Positions 9,155 to 27,228 of a DNA stretch of 64,000 bases are shown piece after piece; position 1 is the stretch's first letter; every line of letters begins with the position of its first letter. Origin of the DNA: Sulfolobus sp. A20 (GTDB lineage Archaea; Thermoproteota; Thermoprotei_A; Sulfolobales; Sulfolobaceae); assembly GCF_001719125.1 (NCBI RefSeq), contig NZ_CP017006.1, forward strand, positions 2,184,384-2,248,383, written 5' to 3'. The notes beneath the pieces were generated by a model. It made no database searches, was not told the origin of the DNA, and worked only from the letters and a program-made list of their open reading frames with translations. Position numbers and translations under genes: made by a program.

Positions 9155-9986
9155 GATGAAAGCCTATAATCAATCCAGTATTGAATCCTACGCTAGTGCA
9201 TCAAATAAAACCTACCCCAAACTCAGTTGGTAACTTCTTTACAATTTTAATAAGGTTATTGAGGTCTTCAAGGAATATAGCAGGAACATTAAACGACTTA
9301 GCTATATCAACAACCCACTTACCTACTTCCCTTGCAGAATCCTCCAAGACATTTTTAGCCTTCCTGTAGGATGACCTTATCCTGTTCAGGATCCTCTCAC
9401 TATCCTTCCACCTCTTTTCATACTTCTTCTGTAAGCCCTCGGCTAAAGCCTTATAATGATGAGCATCCTCCAAACGGGTAGAAATCCTAGCGTAATATTT
9501 ATCATCTTTACCAACAACTACCTCAGCCATGTTAACATCAATTGCAACACCGTCTTTAGCCTCTGGTTCCTTCCATTCCTTTAGAAGAGTGGCCTTTAGA
9601 TTTTCCATCCCTCAGCAATAGCCTAGCCTCTCTTATTTCCCAGTCCTTGTATTCTGACAAGTTCCTCGGATAGCCTAGGATTTGCAACTCGCCAACTCCC
9701 ACTATCCTTACACTCATTTTATTGAAATCGATTGAAAATGATAGGGTTGGGGTTAACCAACGTTACGTAATATTGGGTACTTACTGCGTTTAGGGTTCTT
9801 CAACCACAACTTGTACTTTACTATAGTATTTCTATAACAGTCTATGGCGACCTTTGACGATAGATTAAACTTTTGCCTTAGTGTTTTGTAAGTACCCTTA
9901 TGCGTGTCTTTTAACAAGTTCCTTAGCTTATTCTCCCTTAACCGTTCTAAAACGAAACGTAAGCCTTTTTTCACAGTTAGAGACAA
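9155..9986 (-). pseudogene. Broken IS1341-type tnpB (second lineage)
   Basis: The N-terminal part is at 9753-9986 (FVLERLRENKLRNLLKDTHK, then the NPKRSKYP element). After a gap with a frame change, the middle part lies at 9201-9608 with RuvC-I (VAIDVNMAEVVVG), the arginine-rich helices (EKRWKDSERILNRIRSSYRK) and RuvC-II (AIFLEDLNNLIK). The zinc finger and RuvC-III are lost. The sequence gatgaaagcctat at 9155-9167 marks the downstream edge. The same box occurs near the broken tnpB at 21.7 kb. Confidence 0.78.
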
Positions 9987-10219: not shown

Positions 10220-10993
10220 GTGAAGATATCCACAGGCACAGTAGAGAAACGCGAAAACGGTGAGCTTAATGCACGTATCGTATCAATTAATGCCAGTCCA
10301 GTTGTCATCTCAACGTCATTCGCAGACGACATAGAGATAGTGAGAGAACAGTTGTACAACAAGTTCTTCAAGATATATGTATACCCGCGGGGACTAAACT
10401 TGTACAACGTTATACAAAAGATAGTAAGAAGGGAAGAACTAGAGTACCCGTTTGAGGTCAAGTCGGTAGTTATGTGTTTCCTAAGTGAGATGCCTAAGAG
10501 TGAGGAAATAAGTGATGAATTAGTCAACGCACTTCATGGGTTTGCGTCAAAGGTTCTAACGTATACGAGTAACTATGGCGTTGTCTTCGGAGCCGTTGAA
10601 ATGTTGAGGAATTTCGTGAAAGTCCACGCGGTAATCAACTTCAAAACCGTTGCCTATATTAATTACTTCAACGCCGTAATGAATGAGTTCTACAACGAGA
10701 TACTGTTTGACGCGTTAGGGCTCACAGAGAGGGATATAAAGTCCCTGCGATATGTGAGAAACGCCGGCGAGTTACTTAAGACTGACTACATCTTCGCCTT
10801 AGCTAAAACCACTAAGCAATACATAATTAACGTGCTGAAGGAATTAGAGCGCAAGGGGTTGGTCTATAGCGATAGACCCAACAGCAAAAAGTTCATATGG
10901 GGTCTGACTGAGTTAGGGCAGAGGGTCCTCAACTTCGGTGAGGCGAAGTTAAGGTCGAGGCGATTTAATCAAAGTGAAGACGCAAAACGTTGA
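10220..10993 (+). CDS. Element-encoded winged-helix protein (257 aa)
   Basis: I do not recognise the family. Residues about 180-245 form a winged helix-turn-helix (TDYIFALAKTTKQYIINVLK, then ELERKGLVYS and a wing). The N-terminal 170 residues are mixed alpha/beta with few features. It is the only large intact gene of the integrated remnant, so a regulator or replication-related DNA-binding protein of the virus or plasmid is likely. The start is a GTG at 10220 that overlaps the end of the putative int(C) fragment, so the first residues may be junction sequence. Codon use is richer in G/C than chromosomal neighbours. Confidence 0.6.
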   Translation: MKISTGTVEKRENGELNARIVSINASPVVISTSFADDIEIVREQLYNKFFKIYVYPRGLNLYNVIQKIVRREELEYPFEVKSVVMCFLSEMPKSEEISDELVNALHGFASKVLTYTSNYGVVFGAVEMLRNFVKVHAVINFKTVAYINYFNAVMNEFYNEILFDALGLTERDIKSLRYVRNAGELLKTDYIFALAKTTKQYIINVLKELERKGLVYSDRPNSKKFIWGLTELGQRVLNFGEAKLRSRRFNQSEDAKR

Positions 10994-12003: not shown

Positions 12004-12243
12004 GTGAAAACGGCGAAAGAGAAGATGCGTTATAAATATGGTGACTATATTTTACACCCGATTAAAGGTAGGTATTACGTCTATAAATTGGAAACGGTAA
12101 ACGGTGAGATTAAGGAAACTTACGTAGGTCCTTTAGTTGATGTCGTTGAAACATATCTGAAATTGAAAAATAGAAGTGGGGGTGTGGGGGACGCCCCACT
12201 AAGCCGCGGCCGGGATTTGAACCCGGGACCTTTGCCTTACCAG
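12004..12243 (+). pseudogene. int(N): N-terminal part of an SSV-type tyrosine integrase
   Basis: The deduced protein contains [27 protein letters not shown], then [16 protein letters not shown] and a junction peptide PGPLPYQ. By memory this follows the N-terminus of the SSV1 integrase ([20 protein letters not shown]...) closely. SSV-type integrase genes carry attP inside the gene and are split by integration; here the reading frame runs into the tRNA-Thr gene exactly as expected. The catalytic C-terminal half (R...H-x-x-R...Y) is absent. I prefer the GTG at 12004 over the TTG at 11983. Confidence 0.85.
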
Positions 12244-12276
12244 GGCAACGCTCTGGCCAGGCTGAGCTACCGCGGC
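12203..12276 (-). tRNA. tRNA-Thr (GGT anticodon)
   Basis: On the minus strand a full cloverleaf folds in 74 nt. The acceptor stem is GCCGCGG/CCGCGGC and the D arm is GCTC...GAGC. The anticodon stem TTGCC/GGCAA has loop CTGGTAA, giving anticodon GGT for threonine ACC/ACU. The T arm is CCGGG-TTCAAAT-CCCGG. No intron is seen and no CCA is encoded. It served as the integration target of the 2.1-kb remnant, and the element restored the 3' half. Confidence 0.97.
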
Positions 12277-14067: not shown

Positions 14068-15576
14068 TTATCGTCTAGTCTTACTTAGTTTATATAATAC
14101 TGTAAAAAATAATGCTAATAGTAATATAAGTACTAGTATGCTGATATTAAATATATTTGCAGATGACATAATTACATTATTATTTTCACTCTTTGTTGAT
14201 AAAGTTGTTATTTCTGAACCAGTTATCATTTGATGTAAATTAAAGCTTAATGAAACATTGCTAAATAGCTCGACTATAATAGACTTTGGAAATACTGAAT
14301 AGCCTGGTGAGCTCAAAGAAACGTTATATACACCTGCTGGGAGAACTAACGTTATGTTCGTGTAATTGTACGTCATAGTTTCGTTATTTACGCGTAGAAC
14401 AACTGGCCCTTTTGTGTCATTAACGTATACGTGAACGTAATAATACGGTCTTACGTAGTCCACGTACAAAGTGTAATTTGAATCTAAGTTAAGTATGATA
14501 TTTGTCACATTCGGCTTTTCAATCCACGAACTAAGTATAGTTATATTATAAACCCCTTCTGCTAGCAACAAGTTCATGGTGGAATTAGTTGACTCCAACT
14601 TCGTGCCGTTTATTATAACTCCCCACTGTTGCCCCTCGTAAATTAAATCTTCTGCCTGAACTCTCAGCTCATATAATCTCGGCAAGGTTAATTGATATCT
14701 CAAAATACCATTAGGTGTAGCAGCGTAAATAGAACCATTGTAAACTATCATAGAATAGACGGGGGTATTAGTGTGGTAAAATACTTGAGAATTTATCAGA
14801 TCTATGGCATCTAACCCTTGATAGGAAGCTACGTAAAGGACACCGTTTAAATAAGCTATGTACTCTGGTACTACATTAGTAGGAATGAATGTTATGTTAT
14901 AGTCGTATATTTCATTAAAATACACGTCGTCAATTTTATCTAATTTGAGCACGCTCAAGTTATGGAAAACAAAGATCCCAATTGGGTCAAAGGTCCCAGA
15001 AATAAAGTACTTTCCCGCAAACGCCATTGCTGAAAGCGCGTCCTGGCAATTTATAGTTGTGTGAGTGGAGCCATTATAGTACAAAAAAACGTAGCCGAGC
15101 TCAGAGTCCACTATAGCTGAATTATTTGTGAACGTCATATAACCGAAGCTTCCTATAATATACCACTTACCTACTATCGTAGACCCATTAAGTTCGTAAA
15201 CATAGTCGTTATAAGTAGTTACGTAAGTGATGTTAGTGTAATTGTCATAAAATAACATAAAGGGCTCTGTTATGTTCAGTCTGTATAGCGAACCATTATA
15301 GTAGTATAAAGATCCGTTTGACACTATGTAAATCGAAAAGTTATTTGATAATATTTGCAGGGGATCATAAATGTGCAAAAAGGGCACTAAATTATCGTTT
15401 ATATAGTAATAAATGGTGTTTTCAGCGGGATACGAGACCAATATCTTACCGTGATATACAGTGAGGGAATAAGGATATAGTTTAGATGTTTGTGAAAAAG
15501 GCGATAGTGAGAGTAAGCTCATTAAAATAAAAATTGACAAAAGTAGCGGAAAAATCGATGACTTCATGATACTCAC
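14068..15576 (-). CDS. Secreted, C-terminally anchored beta-propeller-like surface protein (502 aa)
   Basis: A signal peptide is clear (FPLLLSIFILMSLLSLSPFS). Residues about 35-310 carry repeated YYYNGSLY / VYNGSIYAATPNG-like units that suggest a beta-propeller. Residues about 330-450 contain two PEGA-like modules (LLAEGVYNITI and LVLPAGVYNVSLSSPGY). A C-terminal transmembrane helix (ISILVLILLLALFFTVLY) ends in KLSKTRR. Dozens of N-x-S/T sequons predict heavy glycosylation. Its GTG start overlaps the preceding gene's stop by four nt (15573-15576), so it is translationally coupled; an ATG at 15567 is an alternative. It is the last gene of the three-gene minus-strand unit. Confidence 0.7.
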   Translation of the reverse strand: MSIMKSSIFPLLLSIFILMSLLSLSPFSQTSKLYPYSLTVYHGKILVSYPAENTIYYYINDNLVPFLHIYDPLQILSNNFSIYIVSNGSLYYYNGSLYRLNITEPFMLFYDNYTNITYVTTYNDYVYELNGSTIVGKWYIIGSFGYMTFTNNSAIVDSELGYVFLYYNGSTHTTINCQDALSAMAFAGKYFISGTFDPIGIFVFHNLSVLKLDKIDDVYFNEIYDYNITFIPTNVVPEYIAYLNGVLYVASYQGLDAIDLINSQVFYHTNTPVYSMIVYNGSIYAATPNGILRYQLTLPRLYELRVQAEDLIYEGQQWGVIINGTKLESTNSTMNLLLAEGVYNITILSSWIEKPNVTNIILNLDSNYTLYVDYVRPYYYVHVYVNDTKGPVVLRVNNETMTYNYTNITLVLPAGVYNVSLSSPGYSVFPKSIIVELFSNVSLSFNLHQMITGSEITTLSTKSENNNVIMSSANIFNISILVLILLLALFFTVLYKLSKTRR

Positions 15577-17774
15577 GAGAGTAGTAGTGGTTCTAAGTTA
15601 GTTATTGGAATTGGTTCAAACCACTGAGCGCCTGGCGGTAGCCACATTATACCGAAGAATATCGCAGGCGCAGCGTTGTTACCTACATCCAAGTTGAACG
15701 TGAAAACGACAGTTAAATTAACTGGCTTATTCAAGAAGTACGAGAACTCCGGTAAATTATTGCTAACAAATTCTGGGTTGTCGCTGTACTCGACATATAC
15801 TTGATTGTTGACTAGCTTACCTTCAAATACTAGCTTTCCATTTATATACACCAATGCCCATTCATCTGCATAACCGCTTGGTGGTAGGTTATTTTCAGCA
15901 ATTGGTACGAAGTCTGTGAAATTAGCTGAGAACGTATACATACCAGGTTTCTCCGGGACCAGGATTCCTTGAGATTCAAAGGTTATATTAATGTTTTTAC
16001 CAACGAGCAATGAGGGGTTAAAAAGCACTGGGGATGGGCCTCCCCAAATTACAATATCTCCAAACGGTGCAAAGGCAGTTGGAATAGCGCCTGCCCACCC
16101 CCAGAAGCCGTTTAAGTTAGATAGGTCAGCTAGGTTATAAACTTCTACCGCTTCTGAAGAGAGTTGATTATTGGGAGGATTGTGCGGGTTAGTAAAGTAG
16201 GCAGGCTGGGTTGTTCCTGTCTGAGTATCTAAATAAACCTCTTGAGCGAAGTTCTGAGACCATAATACTACAACATTGTTAGGTGAAGGTATCTCTCCAT
16301 AAGAATATATCTGCTCCACTTGGGTTGAAGTCAACGGTATGTCATAGACAATGGTGGGACCTAGTGCGCCATTGAAAGAATAAGCTTTAGAACCGGCGTC
16401 GGCTATATCTCCAGAAAACCCCGGCAACCAAGTTAGGGTACTTTGAGCTGGACCAGGAGGTGGGGCAGGGGCTGGACCCGTCGCATTGTAGGCCGAACCT
16501 ACGTCAAAGAAGGCTGTAGCACTTGCATTGAGATAGGTTATTCCACTTATCTGAGCCTCGCTGACCAACGTTCCATTTATATACATAGCCATTTGACCAG
16601 TTTGGGCGTTATACACTCCTACTGCTAAAGTTAACGCTGAAGATGGCTGACCGTTCTCCTCACTTACTTGTGGGAGACCGTTTGGGTCTAGGATTGTAAC
16701 CCATGTACCATTAGCGAGCTGGACAGTAAAGGCAAGGTAATAGTGTGAAGATTGAGGTGGATTATTAGCTGGAGGATTATTTGCGCTACCTATATCTATG
16801 CCAGAGCCTACAATCAAACCGGCGTCTCCGGTCCACACTATATATCCACCTTCTGGTGGGGTATTGCTGACATATGCCACATCAGCTTGTGGAGTAATAG
16901 CTCCTTTGCTTGTCGTCTGTATGGTTATAGGTTCTATATTACCGCTTGCTATAAACCATTGGACTATTGACTGAGTCTGCAGCTCCGGGTTCCTCTGCTC
17001 TAAGGGTATTGTCCCTATGTTATCGTTATCGCTCTGGTAACCGGTTAAGAAAGACGAGATTGGGAAGTAGCTTGACTCGATGCACTTTTGTATTAAATAG
17101 GAGTTAGTGCCTAGTATTAACGTGGCTTCTCCAGGGAGAGTTGTCTCTTGTCCATTTGGATATATTATTACAGTACCGGCAGGCAATGTTAGTTTCTCAC
17201 CACTGGCTACTTTTGGTAAAGAATTAGGAGAGGGGGTTATAATTAGCGTACCTTGTGGAAGTGTATATTCTCCGCTTGATGTCTCCAAAGTAGCTTGTCC
17301 AGAAGTGATAGTGTATATATTTGCACACGTAATAAGACCAACAGTAGATTCAACAGGTACTGTTATCATATTTCCAAGGCTCGTCAGTATTATTATTGGT
17401 CCAGTATAATAAGGAGGGGTAAATAGAGCTATTGATGTACTATGCTCTACCGTGATGCTTGATGGATAAGCCATTTCCCACGAGCCATCTTGATAATAAT
17501 ATATGTACTTTATGGAGAGAGGAGTGAAACCAGAAATGTATTCAAAATTAAGTAGAACTAAACCATTACTACTAACAGTTGCGTATATACTAGGATCACC
17601 GCTTTCAACTTCTACCAACTGAAGACTTTTTTCATTATCTACTTGTGATATTGATAGCTTTGATTGATGTGCATAACTTGTGTTTAAACTATTTAATAAA
17701 AAGAAAGGTATCAGAACTGAGAAGATTAGTATTAATGCAATAAGACCTAAAATTAGTGGTGCTTGTGCTTTCAT
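15573..17774 (-). CDS. Giant adhesin-like protein with pilin-like N-terminus, LamG-like and PA14-like domains (733 aa)
   Basis: The N-terminus is a short basic tip followed by a long hydrophobic helix (APLILGLIALILIFSVLIPF), like archaeal pilin-type proteins. Residues about 35-140 resemble the whole 164-aa protein encoded at 23353 (shared pattern Y-x-Y-x2-GSW ... S-T-x-x-x-F ... P-x2-I-x-T-x2-G-N). Residues about 330-500 look like a LamG/concanavalin-A fold (MAMYINGTLVSEAQISG; IPLTSTQVEQIYSYGEI). Residues about 550-720 look PA14-like (GMYTFSANF...WALVYINGKLVFEG). A proline-rich linker (PAPAPPPGPAQ) separates modules. It lies 4 nt after the 181-aa gene. A carbohydrate-binding tip protein is inferred. 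Confidence 0.65.
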   Translation of the reverse strand: MKAQAPLILGLIALILIFSVLIPFFLLNSLNTSYAHQSKLSISQVDNEKSLQLVEVESGDPSIYATVSSNGLVLLNFEYISGFTPLSIKYIYYYQDGSWEMAYPSSITVEHSTSIALFTPPYYTGPIIILTSLGNMITVPVESTVGLITCANIYTITSGQATLETSSGEYTLPQGTLIITPSPNSLPKVASGEKLTLPAGTVIIYPNGQETTLPGEATLILGTNSYLIQKCIESSYFPISSFLTGYQSDNDNIGTIPLEQRNPELQTQSIVQWFIASGNIEPITIQTTSKGAITPQADVAYVSNTPPEGGYIVWTGDAGLIVGSGIDIGSANNPPANNPPQSSHYYLAFTVQLANGTWVTILDPNGLPQVSEENGQPSSALTLAVGVYNAQTGQMAMYINGTLVSEAQISGITYLNASATAFFDVGSAYNATGPAPAPPPGPAQSTLTWLPGFSGDIADAGSKAYSFNGALGPTIVYDIPLTSTQVEQIYSYGEIPSPNNVVVLWSQNFAQEVYLDTQTGTTQPAYFTNPHNPPNNQLSSEAVEVYNLADLSNLNGFWGWAGAIPTAFAPFGDIVIWGGPSPVLFNPSLLVGKNINITFESQGILVPEKPGMYTFSANFTDFVPIAENNLPPSGYADEWALVYINGKLVFEGKLVNNQVYVEYSDNPEFVSNNLPEFSYFLNKPVNLTVVFTFNLDVGNNAAPAIFFGIMWLPPGAQWFEPIPITNLEPLLLS

Positions 17775-17778
17775 TCTC

Positions 17779-18324
17779 TCAACCCTCGTAAGTGTAACCT
17801 ATTCTAAAATAATACCCCCCACTATTATAAATTACCCATAAAACGACGGCATAATTTTGCTGAACGTTTATAGTTATTTGGAAAGTAGTATTTGAAGGTA
17901 TACTATAAGCTTGAATACTTCCAGTTAATTGCCTTCCATTAAGGTCATATACTGCGGGCAGTGTAACTAGCTTAGCTGGTTTGCCATTATCGTTAGGTAA
18001 GGTAATAGAATATTGTGATAGTTGAGTAGGAGTCAAGCCACTAACACTAGGCAATTCACTCACTGGCACAGTGAACACAATAACTGAAAAGTTGCCAGAG
18101 TAAGATGGGGAGTATATATAAGATAAGAACACATATCCATTAGATGAGGACTCAGGAGGGCTTAGATCAATATAGATGGTAGACGCTAAAGACTTGGCTA
18201 GCTGAAGAGCAGAATTAAAGGCATATTGAGGTACTACAAGTGCTTGCGTGAACGTGAACGCCACTAGTCCAATAAGTAAGACCGCGATAATTATAATAAA
18301 CTCAGAAACAGTAGTACTTGACAT
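17779..18324 (-). CDS. Pilin-like single-helix surface protein (181 aa)
   Basis: There is a hydrophobic helix at residues 8-31 (SEFIIIIAVLLIGLVAFTFT) with a glutamate just before it, recalling the Glu-5 position of type IV pilins, but no basic class III cleavage site is visible. The ectodomain (SSNGYVFLSYIYSPSYSGNF ... QQNYAVVLWVIYNSGGYYFR) is clearly similar in layout to residues 1-200 of the 803-aa protein encoded divergently at 19216. It is the first gene of the minus-strand unit. It probably assembles at the cell surface; no function is proven. Confidence 0.65.
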   Translation of the reverse strand: MSSTTVSEFIIIIAVLLIGLVAFTFTQALVVPQYAFNSALQLAKSLASTIYIDLSPPESSSNGYVFLSYIYSPSYSGNFSVIVFTVPVSELPSVSGLTPTQLSQYSITLPNDNGKPAKLVTLPAVYDLNGRQLTGSIQAYSIPSNTTFQITINVQQNYAVVLWVIYNSGGYYFRIGYTYEG

Positions 18325-18559
18325 GTCATTATATATTAGAGTTAATCTTCTATAAAAACTTTTCCGAAAAATAATGTGTGAGGATACAACACCGTTACTA
18401 AGCTAGAATTAAAAGAGGAAGAAGATTTATTAGGGATATACCTCATTTATTGCCATCACATTGTTAGAGGCAAATAGGAATACATTAGGAGGAACTTGAG
18501 GATGTAAATGCATAAGTGAGTTAAGGAGTTACCCTTGAATTGGCTATTCCAGGATTTTT

Positions 18560-18776
18560 AAACCATAACAAAGCAAATACTCACCTTTCAAGGCAGAGGA
18601 TAATGTTTTTAGTGAAGGATAGTTACTGAGAGAAGCCAATAGAGGTGTAGTGAGGATGTGCCCTTCCTCCTCAATACGAATCTCGAGGAGGGTGGGGAAA
18701 AGGGATAGGGGTAATCTAGTTGTAGACTGAGCCATTGCTGGACGAGTGGATGTCAAAAATGCCCACTATCTATTAA
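18560..18776 (+). pseudogene. Decayed reading frame, probably transposon-related
   Basis: One frame reads YSPFKAEDNVFSEG, stop, LLREANRGVVRMCPSSSIRI then SRRVGKRDRGNLVVD, stop, AIAGRVDVKNAHYLLS. It leads straight into a right-end-type sequence at 18779. By position it may be the tail of a tnpB-like gene; the family is not proven. Confidence 0.4.
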
Positions 18777-18778
18777 GT

Positions 18779-18837
18779 GATGAAGGCGGTACCTGTGAAC
18801 TGCCCTAAGGGAACTCTCACCCTTTAGAGGAGGTAGG
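18779..18837 (+). repeat. Longer right-end copy with upstream box
   Basis: The box gatgaaggcggta is followed by ctgccctaagggaactctca then ccctttagaggaggtagg. The gatgaa box plus ctaagggaactctc block also occurs in reverse at 27450-27584, so the conserved element is more than the 40-nt end. Confidence 0.55.
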
Positions 18838-19186
18838 TTTTTCTGCCTATGCCAAGAATTTGTTGGACTTATATATAATATTGCGAACCCTATGGGACCT
18901 TGCCCTTAGACCTCTAGTTCAAATCTTGTACACTTGAGTATGCTTCAAAGCGGAGCTTTACAATAAACTGGAATGGATAAAAGTGGAAAGCATTCAAAGA
19001 AGCTAAAATACATAGATAAGCCATAATTATGACGTAAACCTCACGTTAAGAGACCGTATAGTCAGTAAATGAGGGCATAATCTCCTAAATGGAAATAGAT
19101 AAAAAGAGCAACAAAACACTCAACTGGAATAAGACTACAACCCAATTTGTAGCTTCATAACGGCACTATATATATTTGACGGAAAA
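18838..19186. other. Gene-free stretch between divergent surface-protein units
   Basis: Fragmentary reading frames only. cgttaagagaccgtatagtc at about 19043 is loosely shared with ataagggaccggataatc at about 33955, suggesting another degraded insertion element. The promoter of the minus-strand unit lies just right of 18324. Confidence 0.35.
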
Positions 19187-19195
19187 AATTATATA
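19187..19195 (+). promoter_or_regulatory. TATA box of the 803-aa gene
   Basis: attatatag lies about 25 nt upstream of the ATG at 19216, supporting a leaderless start there. Confidence 0.5.
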
Positions 19196-19215
19196 GAAGT
19201 TAATATAATAGTTAT

Positions 19216-21627
19216 ATGATAATTATGGAAAATACAGTAGCATTATTCTTGCTTATAATTGTAGTATTAGTCATTGGTGCAGTATTAGTCGGCTATTCTG
19301 GTTCCCTTACAAGTATCACATACAATCAAGTAAACCCGTTAGAGACAGCATTGAAGTTAGCTAGCGTGATACAAATCAGTAGCTCACCCCCGGCGGTTAA
19401 CTATATTGTACCATCCTATGGAGAACTGCCTAAGTTAAATATCTCTGAGAGCGTGTTAGTAAACATAAACGTACCAAACTATACGGGTGATCTGATTATA
19501 CTACCTATCCTTGTCACGAGTTCTTATCAGCCTTATATAAACAGTAATGGCATTACCTCAACTTCCCCTAACCAAGTAGGTTACATTAATGTTGAGGGAA
19601 ACGTTAAGCCCATTTCTATTCAAGGACAGCTAATAAACCTGTTAAGTCAAAGTGGAGGGGTTGAGATTAATAGTCAAGCCTATCTAATTCAGAACGGAGA
19701 GACTGTCAATATAACTTACGTAACTAATTCCAGTTACATCCCAGCACTTTGGGTATTAACAAATATCTCGGGAGAGCTATTTAGGATTGCCTTTACTTAT
19801 TTTGCCCCAACGACCTATCTGAACACGCCCAGTAACGGGGTAATCCAAACTTATACTACTCTAGTACAAGAGTTCCAACAGATATTTCAGAACGTACCTT
19901 TGGCTAACTTTGTAGGGGGGCAAAATACGCCGGGAAGCTTAAGTATACAACCCGGCGTGACATATGACGTTTATAATGGGCAAGGTCCTATAGGGTTCGT
20001 AAGCTTATATGTACCACCTACTCCCGCCTTAGAGAGCAATGTGGAGATAGCGCCAAATGTGAACCTTGAAGGGAGTGCGATATATTACGATAATGTATTT
20101 TTTACAACTACTCCAAACATACCAATATATGAACAACAGATAAACTATGTTCCTATAAGCTACTTTATAGACCAGATAAACCCCAACGGTATAGTGCAGA
20201 GCTATGAGCAAACCGTCAACCAGATGTTCTCCGGTCTTTCATTCACTACCATAAGCACCCCCGTCACGATCTCTGGGACGCAGACGTACAACGGCCCAAT
20301 TGAGTTCACTGGCCCCGTTACTTTTGGGAGTAATGTTCAAGTTACCTTCAACGGACCGGTGATATTTAAGGGCACCGTGAATTTCCAGGGGTCGGGCGAC
20401 AAAATCACCTTCAACGGGCCTGTGGTATTTGAGGGAACCACCACTCTTCCTCCAAGTTCTTCATTTTACTTCGCAGACGGTCTATTATCCAACGGTACAG
20501 GAAGTTGTGTGATAATAAATAATCACGACTACTTAAATGTCCAAGGGCCTGTACTTTTTGACGACCCCTCTGGTGCGATTAGGATATCCTCATATATAAA
20601 TATACAAACGAACTCTATAGTCTACTTTAATGCTCTTACAGTGATTATCGGCCCAGGTGTCAACATCCAAGATCAAGGTCCCCTTATAGCTTGTACCACT
20701 GAGCTTACATTCTCTCCCAACGGTAATTTGAACGTAAACGGTCCCTTTCTTTTAAACGGGAAAAACGGTGGACTGACTATATCTTCTAATGCCGTGATAA
20801 ACGTGAACAGCGTAGCCTACATATCGTCTAATTATGCCTTGTCGATATCGCCTAATTCCGTAATCTCGTCAGTAGGTTATCTGATATTTAACTTCGGTAA
20901 ATCTGGTACAGTTAACCCTTATACACAACTGATAGTTAATCAGGGTAACCCCAACAATTACCCTGTGTCGCCACCACTGATCAACCCACAGCCCGGAGAA
21001 ACTTATTACGTGACCTTCTCAACGTGGTTTAGCATTATACCCAATAACCAGAACGAGGTTGTAGCGAACGTTACGTTAGAGGCAGACAATAGCCCTAGCC
21101 CAATAGTGTTTTCCTTAAGCCCGGTCTCCCCTACGTCTTATGAACTAGGGATAACTTCTGGGAGCGGACAGACACAGACCATCCCCTATGAACTTTACTT
21201 GAATAGTTACTATTTCCTCAGCTTGGAGTTAAAGATAGTTGACACCAATAACGTGTTATCTGTCTGTCCTTCATACGTTATAATGAACAGTTCATGGCAA
21301 TATTCTGGGTCCTCCCCAGAATTTACAGTTAAACCTGCAGGGTTGTACCTTACGGCTGAGCTAGGTAACGAGAGCTTCTATCAGCTGATGTTAACTAACG
21401 GTACGGAAATACCCGCAAACTTACTTAACGTAATCTCCTCTTCACCTATCGTCAACTACGCTAATTACATTCAATCCCAAGGTTTAAACCCAAACACCGT
21501 TGGGGTAGCGTATTTCTATTTAATTACTCCTAGCAATCTCATATCAGAATTGACTCCAACGTATACAAATATAGAAGAGTTTCCGGTTACGTTGTACGTC
21601 GAAGGCTATACATGGAGTGGAGCTTAA
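19216..21627 (+). CDS. Giant adhesin-like protein: pilin-like domain fused to a beta-helix and lectin-like module (803 aa)
   Basis: A pilin-like helix lies at residues 7-29 (TVALFLLIIVVLVIGAVLVG) after Glu-5. The domain up to about residue 200 is paralogous to the 181-aa protein (NYTGDLIILPILV; IPALWVLTNISGELFRIAFT). Residues about 350-560 contain irregular repeats such as ITFNGPVVFEGT, VTFNGPVIFKGT and LNVNGPFLLNG, as in right-handed beta-helix proteins. The last 200 residues look beta-sandwich/lectin-like (YYVTFSTWFSIIPNNQNEVV). Codon use is richer in C/G than most neighbours. It is transcribed divergently from the 181/733/502-aa unit. Cell-surface attachment and adhesion are inferred. Confidence 0.65.
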   Translation: MIIMENTVALFLLIIVVLVIGAVLVGYSGSLTSITYNQVNPLETALKLASVIQISSSPPAVNYIVPSYGELPKLNISESVLVNINVPNYTGDLIILPILVTSSYQPYINSNGITSTSPNQVGYINVEGNVKPISIQGQLINLLSQSGGVEINSQAYLIQNGETVNITYVTNSSYIPALWVLTNISGELFRIAFTYFAPTTYLNTPSNGVIQTYTTLVQEFQQIFQNVPLANFVGGQNTPGSLSIQPGVTYDVYNGQGPIGFVSLYVPPTPALESNVEIAPNVNLEGSAIYYDNVFFTTTPNIPIYEQQINYVPISYFIDQINPNGIVQSYEQTVNQMFSGLSFTTISTPVTISGTQTYNGPIEFTGPVTFGSNVQVTFNGPVIFKGTVNFQGSGDKITFNGPVVFEGTTTLPPSSSFYFADGLLSNGTGSCVIINNHDYLNVQGPVLFDDPSGAIRISSYINIQTNSIVYFNALTVIIGPGVNIQDQGPLIACTTELTFSPNGNLNVNGPFLLNGKNGGLTISSNAVINVNSVAYISSNYALSISPNSVISSVGYLIFNFGKSGTVNPYTQLIVNQGNPNNYPVSPPLINPQPGETYYVTFSTWFSIIPNNQNEVVANVTLEADNSPSPIVFSLSPVSPTSYELGITSGSGQTQTIPYELYLNSYYFLSLELKIVDTNNVLSVCPSYVIMNSSWQYSGSSPEFTVKPAGLYLTAELGNESFYQLMLTNGTEIPANLLNVISSSPIVNYANYIQSQGLNPNTVGVAYFYLITPSNLISELTPTYTNIEEFPVTLYVEGYTWSGA

Positions 21628-21690
21628 TGGAAAGTTTTTGTTCACCTCTAAGAAGATATCGTTAATTTAAAGTCAGTTCTTTTACAAGGC

Positions 21691-22755
21691 GATGAAAGCC
21701 TATAGCGGGGATGAGAAGTATATAAAACTCCTTTCTCTTCTTTTTTACGAGCAGGGAAGATAGTAAGAATATTGGGTTAGGAATCAGAGCTACTATTAGC
21801 CTAATGATTCTTCTGTCACTCACCTGCTTAACCTTGTTCAAAGATATGGATTTGAGATATTGAATGTTTGCGGGAAAGTAAGCTTAAGGAGAATCTAAAT
21901 TGAAGTTCATAAGTGGACTCATCAAGTCTTGAAGGAGGAGTTTAACCTACGCCCTAAACTAGCATAAGATTATTATAGATATGCTATAGAAGTATTTAAG
22001 GGTAGGCTTAATAACCCTAAACGTAGTAGGTATCCTATCGTAAAGTTTACGTTGGTTAACTCCTAATATCTCATATAAATTAGACCTTAACAGGTTGATC
22101 GTGTGGATTGTCAAGTTGGTGAGCTACCAATGCTAGGTTATCCAAAAAATTTACCATTTTATAAAGATTGGGAGATTAGGGAGACTAGTTTTGAGGGGTA
22201 GGAAAGCTTTTCTGAAGGTATCTCTTCTCAAGAGTTTGAAGCTAAGGGAGAGGTTGATATTAACATGAGTAATGTCGTTGTTTTCAAGGCCGATGATAGG
22301 TACGTTAGAATTCCAACACGCTTAGATGATGATCATAATTATGAGAGTTCAGCCGAGAGTATGCAAAGGAAATATGACAGGAAATGGAAAGAGGGCATGA
22401 AAATATCAAATCACAAGAAGGCTAAAAACATTATATGAGGACCCTAGGAAGGTTGGATTGTTGATAAAGCTACGTTATTAGATGTCTCAGCGGTGTTCTT
22501 GGAGGATTTGAATAAAATGATTAGGAGGTTACTAGTAGAGTTTAGGGATAAGTTATATTTGATGCTTTATCATCGGGTTCAGTACTGAATTGAGCGGGAG
22601 GTAAAGAAGCATAGTCTGATTGATATTCACCCTAGGTTCTCCTTAACTAGTTGCCCTAAGTGCGGGGATAGGATTGGAGAGGTTACTTATAAATGTTTTC
22701 GTTGTGTTAATTGTGGTTATGAGAATGATAAAGATGTTTTATGAATCTTTATGGT
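21691..22755 (+). pseudogene. Degenerate IS1341-type tnpB
   Basis: The order of TnpB parts is readable through many stops. The N-terminal part is VLKEEFNLRPKLA followed by NNPKRSRYPIVK near 21930-22060. RuvC-I is VDINMSNVVVFKADDRYVRI, followed by KYDRKWKEGMK near 22250-22400. RuvC-II is AVFLEDLNKMIRR near 22490. The zinc finger is CPKCGDRIGEVTYKCFRCVN followed by CGYENDKDV near 22650-22735. The gatgaaagcctat box at 21691 matches that at 9155. Unlike the 6.7/13.3-kb fragments, it keeps the classic four-cysteine finger. Confidence 0.78.
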
Positions 22756-22891
22756 TCTCGGAGCTTCTCGACATACAAGAGATGTAATTGTAAATATACG
22801 AGGGTAACCCTCTAATAGGGGGAATTCGGCTCTCAAATTACTAGATACTACAAACTTTATATAGAAGGAGGTAATAATATCTATAAGGATT

Positions 22892-23350
22892 ATGAGTTTA
22901 TGTGATAAGAAGGGTATGGAGCGATCTTCTAAAAGCTCGAGGGCGTTAAGTGACATCATAGCCTTTTTAATTACGCTAATAGTAATACTATCCTTTATCC
23001 TCCCTTTAACTTTGTATATTTTAAATAATGCTACGTCGGTTAGTCCTACTGTTCAACAACAAGAAAAGGTTATAGGTCCAGTTATAAATGTTACTTATTC
23101 TCCTCCTTTAATTTGCTTAAAATATCCTTCAAGTTTAGGTGGAGAGGTTGAATTACTTAATGTGTACAACTATACCTCAGGTTATTATTCGCAAGTAAAG
23201 ATAACCCCTTATAGCTCACAGAACGGTGAGATAATATACGAAATTAGTAATCATCAAGAGTCTCCGAAAGAGCTAGTGGTAGAAATCTACTACAATGGAC
23301 AGTTTTACTTTGCCTATTTACCTCAGTATGGTTATGCTCTGGTGGGGTAA
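22892..23350 (+). CDS. Pilin-like membrane-anchored surface protein (152 aa)
   Basis: A basic N-terminus (KKGMERSSKSSRA) precedes LSDIIAFLITLIVILSFILP. This is the arrangement of a class III (PibD-type) prepilin signal, with possible cleavage after SRA. The rest is a small beta-rich domain with few charged residues (VNVTYSPPLICLKYPSSLGG). TATA ctttatata lies at 22854-22862, and a purine-rich gaaggaggt lies upstream of the ATG. The next gene starts 2 nt after its stop, so both are cotranscribed. Confidence 0.68.
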   Translation: MSLCDKKGMERSSKSSRALSDIIAFLITLIVILSFILPLTLYILNNATSVSPTVQQQEKVIGPVINVTYSPPLICLKYPSSLGGEVELLNVYNYTSGYYSQVKITPYSSQNGEIIYEISNHQESPKELVVEIYYNGQFYFAYLPQYGYALVG

Positions 23351-23352
23351 AA

Positions 23353-23847
23353 ATGCTTAATAAGGGTTTATCAAATGTAGTAGCTACAATAATTATTATT
23401 TTAGTATTCCTAACAGTTTTCATACCTTTTTTATATACTTATTTTGACGTTCAACAGTTAGGTAATGAATATCAGTTAATGGGAGAAAACGGGTTGTATT
23501 ATAAAAATATTGAGACGACGGATCTTGAGACGGGGAAAATTCAGGTATCTTATTATGTATTCCCTCAAGAAGGTAATACATATCTGGCAGAAATAACGTT
23601 CACTATGGATTCTCAAATTGTATTAGGTCAGCTCAATTATCTGGAAATAGCTGGAATTTACAATTACACTGGTAGCCAATGGCAATTGATCTCATATATA
23701 AATGGAAAGCTTGTAAATTATCCATTACAGCTCCCCATAGGTTACGCAAGCACCTTAACCTTTTACGAAGCCTCTCCTTCTCCAGTAGTAATTCAGACAT
23801 ATTATGGCAATCTTTTGTTCTTAACTCCAAACTCGACTGGTTACTAA
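23353..23847 (+). CDS. Pilin-like surface protein with class III-type signal (164 aa)
   Basis: The N-terminus MLNKGLSNVVATIIIILVFL has the K-G / hydrophobic boundary of archaeal type IV prepilin signals. The ectodomain (YNYTGSQWQLISYINGKL ... VIQTYYGNLLFLTP) matches the domain after the hydrophobic helix in the 733-aa protein. It is the second gene of the plus-strand pair after the 152-aa protein. No assembly ATPase, PilC-like platform or peptidase is found in the window, so those would have to be supplied in trans. Confidence 0.7.
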   Translation: MLNKGLSNVVATIIIILVFLTVFIPFLYTYFDVQQLGNEYQLMGENGLYYKNIETTDLETGKIQVSYYVFPQEGNTYLAEITFTMDSQIVLGQLNYLEIAGIYNYTGSQWQLISYINGKLVNYPLQLPIGYASTLTFYEASPSPVVIQTYYGNLLFLTPNSTGY

Positions 23848-25743: not shown

Positions 25744-27228
25744 ATGCCTGATGAAGAGTACGACCTAAATTACGCTTACAGAGCGTTGCTCATCTTAGCT
25801 CCAATAGCTATTGCAGTAATGTACACGGAGGCTATGTTAATACCCTCTTTGCCAACGATTGCAAATGATTTTAACGTAAACTCCGCTACCGTAAGTTGGG
25901 TTTTAACAGCTTACTTAATAAGTGGTGTAGTCGCAAACCCGATTGTGGGTAAATTGGGTGACATTTATGGTAAAAAGAGGATTCTAGTTTACGTTATGAT
26001 GATATACACTATTGCCGTAACACTTAATGGCTTTGCCCCTAACTTCACTCTGTTCATAATTTTTAGAACTATTCAAGGCATAGGTTTGGGGATGTTTCCA
26101 TTAGCCTTTAGCCTAATAAGGGAGGAATTTCCACCTCACTTAGTACCTAGAGCTCAAGGATTAGTTAGTGCTATGTTTGGGATAGGGTCAGCGATTAGTT
26201 TGCCTATAGCTGCGACAGTTGCACAAGATATAGGTTGGCAGTATAATTATCACTTCGTTATACCCTTTGTTATATTGTTGACTTACTTAACCTCTAAGTA
26301 CATTAAGGAGAGTAGGTACGTTAATCCTAATACTAAGATTGATTACATAGGGGCTGGTATATTGGGATCGTCTTTAGCCTTAATGACTACAGCCTTTTCA
26401 GAGGCCCCAACTTGGGGATGGCTGTCAACGTCTTTTCTAATAACTATGTTATTAGGTGTTGTGCTATTCACTACCTTCATATTTTATGAATTAAGAATAC
26501 CATATCCTTTAATATCAATAAAGCTTCTGAAAGAGAAAAACGTGTTAGCGTCTAATATTGCTGCTTTTGTAGCAGGTTTCGGAATATTCATGGCATATCA
26601 AGCTATAACTTATTTGCTTGAATTGCCAAATCCTGTTGGCTTTAATTTAGATATTTTGAGTACAGGAATTACTATGTTGCCAGTTTCATTAAGTCAAATG
26701 GTTGGGGCTCTGTTTGCTTCAAGGCTTATATTGAGGTCAGGTACTAAATTCGTCATAGTGATCTCCTCAGTAATTCTATCATTCTTTTACTTTATACTCT
26801 CGCTTATTGCAATTTCTGGTTCTTCAGCTGGTTTAATTAACGTAGTATTATTCTCAGCTCTGGCTACGTTAGGTGCGTCAATGTTAAATGTTGTATTAAT
26901 AAACATACTTACCTTTTCCGTCGAGAGAAGAGTTTTAGGTATAGCTACTGGTATGAACACTGTTTTTAGACTAATAGGAGGAGCCTTTGGTCCCTCTATA
27001 GCCGGTTCCTTAATATCTACTTACTATACCTATTTAGTTTATCCAATGTCCTTTGGTGGGAATAGTTTTTACTTACCAATTCAATTACCCTCTGATTACG
27101 CTTTTCAATTAACTTTCACGATTTCAGCACTAGCAGGATTAATGATGGCTATCATAGGTAGTATGACTAGGGATATTAGAATAGGGAAGATGAGAGTGGG
27201 TATATCTTCAAACATGGGGGAGAAGTAA
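25744..27228 (+). CDS. MFS multidrug-type exporter, 14-helix DHA2-like (494 aa)
   Basis: About fourteen hydrophobic helices are visible. MFS motif A is GKLGDIYGKKR in the loop after helix 2. A drug:H+ antiporter motif C-like stretch is GIGSAISLPIAATVAQDIGW in helix 5. Early signature: LPSLPTIANDFNVNSATVSW-type (here IPSLPTIANDFNVNSATVSW). The length and helix count point to the DHA2 group. Substrates are unknown. It starts 21 nt after the 55-aa ORF and could be in the same operon, though AT-rich sequence before it could also hold a promoter. Confidence 0.87.
   Translation: MPDEEYDLNYAYRALLILAPIAIAVMYTEAMLIPSLPTIANDFNVNSATVSWVLTAYLISGVVANPIVGKLGDIYGKKRILVYVMMIYTIAVTLNGFAPNFTLFIIFRTIQGIGLGMFPLAFSLIREEFPPHLVPRAQGLVSAMFGIGSAISLPIAATVAQDIGWQYNYHFVIPFVILLTYLTSKYIKESRYVNPNTKIDYIGAGILGSSLALMTTAFSEAPTWGWLSTSFLITMLLGVVLFTTFIFYELRIPYPLISIKLLKEKNVLASNIAAFVAGFGIFMAYQAITYLLELPNPVGFNLDILSTGITMLPVSLSQMVGALFASRLILRSGTKFVIVISSVILSFFYFILSLIAISGSSAGLINVVLFSALATLGASMLNVVLINILTFSVERRVLGIATGMNTVFRLIGGAFGPSIAGSLISTYYTYLVYPMSFGGNSFYLPIQLPSDYAFQLTFTISALAGLMMAIIGSMTRDIRIGKMRVGISSNMGEK

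Follow-up and report, generated by a model that had tools for sequence, protein, structure and literature searches.

A motorless pilin-like surface locus in Sulfolobus sp. A20 as a rearranged allele of a Sulfolobaceae-wide gene cluster with exchanged ectodomains

The six divergent genes at positions 14068-23847 of the DNA analyzed here (the window: 64,000 nucleotides, corresponding to positions 2184384-2248383 of the single 2,688,317-bp contig of Sulfolobus sp. A20, whose genome has been published; PMC5127849) are, as judged from sequence profiles, a rearranged and divergent allele of a locus distributed across the Sulfolobaceae, to which new ectodomains and a non-pilin protein, P502, have been added. 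This finding displaces the initial annotation's proposal of a dedicated and possibly undescribed six-gene system, since the locus is found in most of the family. The best reading, to which we assign a probability of about 0.48, is that the genes encode pilin-like subunits that carry interchangeable adhesins and, most likely through the Aap machinery, are assembled in trans as putative minor or tip subunits. A20 (handle G000) is placed in genus g1 with G001-G006, and other genomes are called by handle throughout. The features discussed are:

14068..15576, minus strand: P502 (component F), 502 aa, with a Sec-type signal or anchor at the N terminus and a C-terminal membrane anchor
15573..17774, minus strand: P733, 733 aa, stem C (residues 2-143) plus head733 (244-731)
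17779..18324, minus strand: P181, 181 aa, stem A, a compact pilin homologue without a prepilin-peptidase motif
18325..19215, no strand: divergent intergenic region, made up largely of dispersed MITE-like repeats that have enlarged it
19216..21627, plus strand: P803, 803 aa, stem B (4-199) plus a predicted right-handed beta-helix (about 345-560)
21628..22891, plus strand: TnpB (IS200/IS605-type) relic between P803 and P152
22892..23350, plus strand: P152, 152 aa, stem E, prepilin motif SRA↓LS
23353..23847, plus strand: P164, 164 aa, stem D without the usual large ectodomain, motif NKG↓LS
25744..27228, plus strand: MFS transporter, a chromosomal marker

The six open reading frames, three per strand, were confirmed with the sizes and coordinates originally given, as were the 4-nt overlap and 4-nt gap on the minus strand and the 2-nt gap on the plus strand. 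Homologues of these genes recur in other genomes, and chance open reading frames are ruled out for this reason. An N-terminal hydrophobic helix, at first ascribed to almost all of the proteins, is present in all six. The description of the ectodomains as glycosylation-prone applies to P502 only, which contains 24 N-x-S/T sequons versus 7.1 in shuffled sequences (0 of 2000 shuffles reach 24); the other five proteins are at or near chance. TATA-box-like AT-rich elements are located upstream of both start codons flanking 18325-19215.

A fundamental question is what this locus looks like in related organisms. Reading of 20-kb stretches together with iterated profiles revealed a recurring Sulfolobaceae arrangement in which gene B (~460 aa) is divergent from an operon of A (187 aa), C (550 aa), D (478 aa) and E (160 aa). 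By our own count, ~24 of 31 genomes have this ordinary locus in complete or near-complete form, among them every one of the six g1 relatives of A20, and the A family, detected in all 31, is the most conserved part of the locus. C is related to D, and A is related to B. The first relatives across the family were found by using the P733 N terminus and P181 as queries; P733 alone gave no match against the named genomes, and the A1 alignment gave one contig, labelled ‘Euryarchaeota archaeon’. This public contig (L092 / L038) carries the version of the locus from Sulfolobaceae genus g8, and its label is probably wrong.

Stem profiles (HMMs) were built solely from the stems of other genomes and then scored on the window proteins, which resulted in one copy each of stems A to E: P181 is assigned to A (171 bits), P733 to C (72.6 bits), P164 to D (51.7 bits, with the match covering the full stem length), P803 to B (46 bits) and P152 to E (27.9 bits, the weakest assignment). 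The ordinary gene order is absent in the window, where the order is F-C-A // B-E-D, and the ordinary ectodomains of C, D and B are absent there as well, such that head733 is carried on C instead, the head of D has been lost, and B bears the predicted beta-helix. All six genes occur in this same altered order in G008 (genus g3). G017, also in g3, retains A, C, D and E in their ordinary form and has in addition a B stem that carries the head of P733, and a relative of P502. An ordinary copy of the locus was not found in the A20 genome, where A-family matches other than P181 are limited to the stem of P803 and a 177-aa gene that lies separately, upstream of the window. A paralogous two-gene set just upstream of the window (2180761-2183388; L085 10762-13388) encodes a 177-aa A-like pilin and a 698-aa D-stem protein; similar pairs were seen in G020, where the pair (L077 6540-8872) adjoins the ordinary locus, and on a contig of G024 (L083 515-2867).

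The ordinary locus can be linked to published work on virus entry. In S. solfataricus, sso3138-3141 is the SIRV2-entry cluster (Deng et al. 2014, as relayed in PMC5454432, PMC4456609 and PMC7217056); mutations at sso3138-3141 and sso2386-2387 block SIRV2 (PMC5454432, PMC7217056, PMC4456609), and both aapE/F (sso2387/2386) and sso3139/3140 are needed for infection (PMC7217056). In G003, which is taken as S. solfataricus, the ordinary locus lies at 2.9296-2.9352 Mb; within the 100 kb examined, no other place has four single-TM surface proteins encoded in a row on one strand. SSO3140 would presumably fall at about 2.93-2.96 Mb, as interpolated from ATPase-gene locus tags. A literature search to check the SSO numbering by flanking-gene tags found no paper. 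By position and gene content, rather than by locus tags, the ordinary locus is therefore likely, at a high degree of confidence, to be sso3138-3141. The latter comprises four consecutive co-oriented single-TM surface genes (166, 478, 550 and 187 aa in G003), and the A20 window has one stem of each type; however, the two differ in gene order, in the large ectodomains and in the added P502, D is headless in A20, and its A protein is only ~40% identical. No description of the five-stem definition, the stem/head exchange or the A20 allele was found in the literature surveyed, and papers beyond that survey may differ.

The ectodomains, referred to here as heads, are exchanged between stems. Head733 (~490 residues, P733 244-731) scores 508 bits against its own head profile, and its carrier differs between genomes: stem C in both A20 and G008, stem B in G017, and an A/B-like stem in G021. 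As placed by these profiles, one ectodomain type sits on different stems in different genera, which constitutes head exchange. The P733 head probably includes a ConA/LamG-type lectin domain: Laminin_G_3 is matched in P733 at 19.3 bits (E 1e-3), below the curated Pfam cut-off of 27.6, and only in the homologue L038 is the match, at 28.1 bits, above it. In the 822-aa relative of P733 in G008 (L037 8643-11111), the head with the lectin domain is partly duplicated in tandem. A PA14 domain in P733, suspected by eye, was dropped, as it is without Pfam support.

The AF2 models rest on shallow alignments. The model of P733, derived from two sequences, has a mean pLDDT of 33 and was not used for fold search; that of P803 has a mean pLDDT of 40, with local values of about 55-74 in the beta-helix region. 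The P803 ectodomain is predicted to be a right-handed beta-helix, which the hydrophobic periodicity of this region fits, and the model reaches VIA-align Z scores of up to 14.6 to beta-helix adhesins, tailspikes and a tapirin; Foldseek returned no match under E 0.18. The Z of 14.6 is to 6n2c, a Caldicellulosiruptor tapirin with which the model shares the beta-helix, but this likeness is one of fold alone, beta-helices match one another widely, and the model is of low overall confidence. P502 is predicted to carry a beta-propeller, with its family profile matching the designed propeller Ika8 (E 1e-3), and a PEGA-like domain (PEGA PF08308, E 5e-4, just under the cut-off); its C-terminal TM segment is at 467-500. 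Orthologues of P502 are present only in G008 (50%) and G017 (37%).

The heads of C and D look labile. Ordinary-locus C is frameshifted in G020 (L077 11156-12840), D contains an in-frame stop in G010 (L074 5261-6658), and in G026 (L082 9405-10320) both C and D are reduced almost to their stems; in REY15A, premature stops are reported in sso3139 and sso3140 (PMC5454432). The broken or headless C or D genes in three separate lineages would fit either selection acting on a virus receptor or sequencing error.

How do these proteins relate to pilins? P181 is supported directly as pilin-like, in that the A-family profile matches the solved Saccharolobus pilins 6w8x (E 9e-4) and 8fjs (E 1e-3) and can be aligned with the mature forms of Saccharolobus pilins starting at about residue 3. 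P733, P803, P152 and P164 appear pilin-like through homology to the A-E stem families, together with the PibD motifs in P152 and P164. P502 is not a pilin, as it has no prepilin motif and has a C-terminal membrane anchor. When the PibD site (K/R)(G/A)↓(L/I/F)(S/T/A) was sought in the window, P152 (SRA↓LS) and P164 (NKG↓LS) matched, P733 (KA↓QA) was off at one position, and no motif was found in P181 or P803. Across genomes, PibD-type motifs occur in 15-16 of 17 C, 15-16 of 16 D and 19 of 20 E sequences (loose motif), and in 0 of 21 A and 0 of 19 B sequences (B under the strict motif). The alignments therefore suggest two stem classes, C/D/E with PibD motifs and A/B as pilin homologues without them. 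The A sequences have no K/R within the first 12 residues, which may reflect a different processing route.

That stems A and B are motif-free in 40 aligned sequences (strict motif) argues against a simple all-pilin fibre. It is also the main reason for keeping an alternative hypothesis, which we consider possible if on balance improbable, that the proteins form a cell-envelope complex serving as an adhesin or secondary virus receptor. The archaellum proteins ArlF and ArlG offer the model here, being single-pass and membrane-held with ectodomains in or above the S-layer. In addition to the A/B stems, in which no genome shows a prepilin motif when the strict form is applied, this hypothesis would account for the C-terminal anchor of P502 and for the lack of ATPase linkage, and it agrees with a view reported in the literature, that sso3139-3141 form a membrane complex that may act as a secondary receptor (PMC4456609). 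It is at odds with the prepilin motifs in C, D and E, with the match of A to filament-forming pilins, and with the SIRV2-resistance phenotype that aapE/F and sso3139/3140 mutants share (PMC7217056).

The view of the initial annotation that this is a pilin/adhesin-type locus without its own motor, requiring assembly in trans, is borne out. Neither an assembly ATPase (PF00437) nor a platform protein (PF00482) is present at the A20 locus, and the nearest ATPase is ~150 kb away. Among the matches listed, compared by eye, every above-cut-off secretion ATPase of a complete genome is more than 50 kb from the locus, the closest being at about 52 kb in G011. The locus is thus conserved elsewhere without belonging to a ups, aap or archaellum operon, and in these genomes was not found beside a secretion ATPase. 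With no motor at the locus, any fibre must be assembled in trans. Secretion ATPases are encoded in A20 at about 950, 1699, 1925 and 2043 kb, and a fifth, weaker match is found at 576 kb; platform-protein matches lie beside three of the secretion ATPases, and there is one A24 peptidase gene, at 938.6 kb. Any of the four ATPases could be the partner. The putative Aap genes are the ATPase at ~2,043.5 kb, which we infer to be that of Aap from its open-frame length, and the platform protein at ~2,041.4 kb.

The original idea for this locus, a separate fibre polymerized through machinery encoded elsewhere, now appears unlikely; one of these four ATPases would drive it, and P181 would be its main subunit, decorated by the large proteins. 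P181 is a compact pilin homologue whose family occurs in 31 of 31 genomes, and the lack of a nearby motor would suit such a fibre; however, the P181 family is without a prepilin motif, the abundant solved pili of this group are of AapB/PilA type (PMC11178815, PMC7347861), S. acidocaldarius has three well-studied type IV pilus systems (PMC11178785), and the five-stem set resembles minor subunits.

The A20 allele was probably not inherited with the rest of the chromosome. The P181 tree groups A20 with G008 of genus g3 (100/99), with G017 as their neighbor (85/84), and does not allow a single g1 clade, which is 36 log-likelihood units worse (p-AU 0.001). The MFS gene beside the A20 locus has orthologues, 79-87% identical, near the ordinary locus in five g1 genomes. 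Since P181 groups with another genus and monophyly of its own genus is rejected, it is likely that another lineage's version horizontally replaced the ordinary locus and that transposons were inserted afterwards, with long branches as a caveat. The initial annotation had also proposed acquisition, and was right as to the outcome but not as to its grounds, which were flanking tnpB relics and the codon use of one gene. The relics exist, with the stretch at 21628-22891 matching TnpB-like fragments (CPKCG motifs) when translated and a second relic at about 9170-9843, but the former is inserted inside the locus rather than flanking it. Such relics are common in the A20 genome (16 matches to 21628-22891, including itself) and were rejected as proof of acquisition. 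G008 has no relic at this site and its P803 and P152 equivalents overlap, so the gap in A20 is most simply a later insertion. The repeats of 18325-19215 have 28 matches in the A20 genome, including the region itself; the A-B spacing is 57 bp in G003 and 265 bp in G008. The atypical codon use of P803 was confirmed (z -7.4), placing it among the two most atypical genes tested in the window. The most atypical (z -7.9) encodes a 257-aa winged-helix-like protein at 10220-10993, adjoining the TnpB relic at about 9170-9843; the tRNA-Thr gene in its vicinity (12202-12276) is the sole Rfam match. A viral or proviral origin was rejected, as scans of viral contigs gave no relative.

A recently acquired island of conflict or mobile-element cargo, unrelated to host surface structures, could also combine the g3 grouping of P181, the codon bias of P803 and the transposon relics. 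We consider it very improbable: one of each ordinary stem is kept, the A20 locus replaces the ordinary one and is not added to it, the chromosomal neighborhood is unchanged as marked by the MFS orthologue, the relics lie inside the locus and belong to genome-wide repeats, and the viral-contig scans found no relatives.

Under the preferred reading of Aap-assembled tip subunits, stems C, D and E would be cut by PibD (the single A24 peptidase gene, ~938 kb) and then incorporated by a type IV pilus machine whose genes lie outside the locus, most likely that of Aap, as minor and probably tip subunits displaying large adhesive heads. The lectin head on P733 and the beta-helix on P803 may bind glycans or surfaces, with P502 as a membrane-anchored accessory surface protein. 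This reading is supported by the need for both clusters in SIRV2 infection, by the binding of SIRV2 to the tips of isolated pili (PMC7911016), by the Aap pilus tip, which has not been reconstructed and for which the minor pilin AapA is proposed (PMC11178785), and by the precedent of the ConA-lectin modular pilin PilC in the Streptococcus sanguinis tip complex (PMC9934059). The locus resembles the Aap pilus in its type IV pilin-type stems, PibD-type motifs and proposed adhesion role, but lacks AapE, AapF and AapX, and its subunits are up to several times larger than AapA and AapB. The S. sanguinis PilA/PilB/PilC complex is likewise built of modular pilins, with a short stem and a grafted head that includes a ConA-like lectin (PMC9934059); it is bacterial and lies inside a complete pil locus, and the likeness meant here is one of architecture. 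We propose that rod-shaped viruses exploit the ordinary version for entry, and that head exchange and head loss would be favored as a result.

The identity of the archaeal pilus tip and the need for two unlinked clusters in rudivirus entry are two questions to which a motorless stem set offers one testable answer. We tentatively suggest, while considering it somewhat unlikely, that a motorless modular five-stem complex (C, D and E with the PibD motif, A and B without), whose heads are exchanged between stems and genera, makes up the tip, or else the base, of adhesive pili in archaea and is a host-range determinant for rod-shaped viruses, with A20 carrying a wholly swapped allele. If true, this would be a case of archaeal surface proteins swapping ectodomains with one another.
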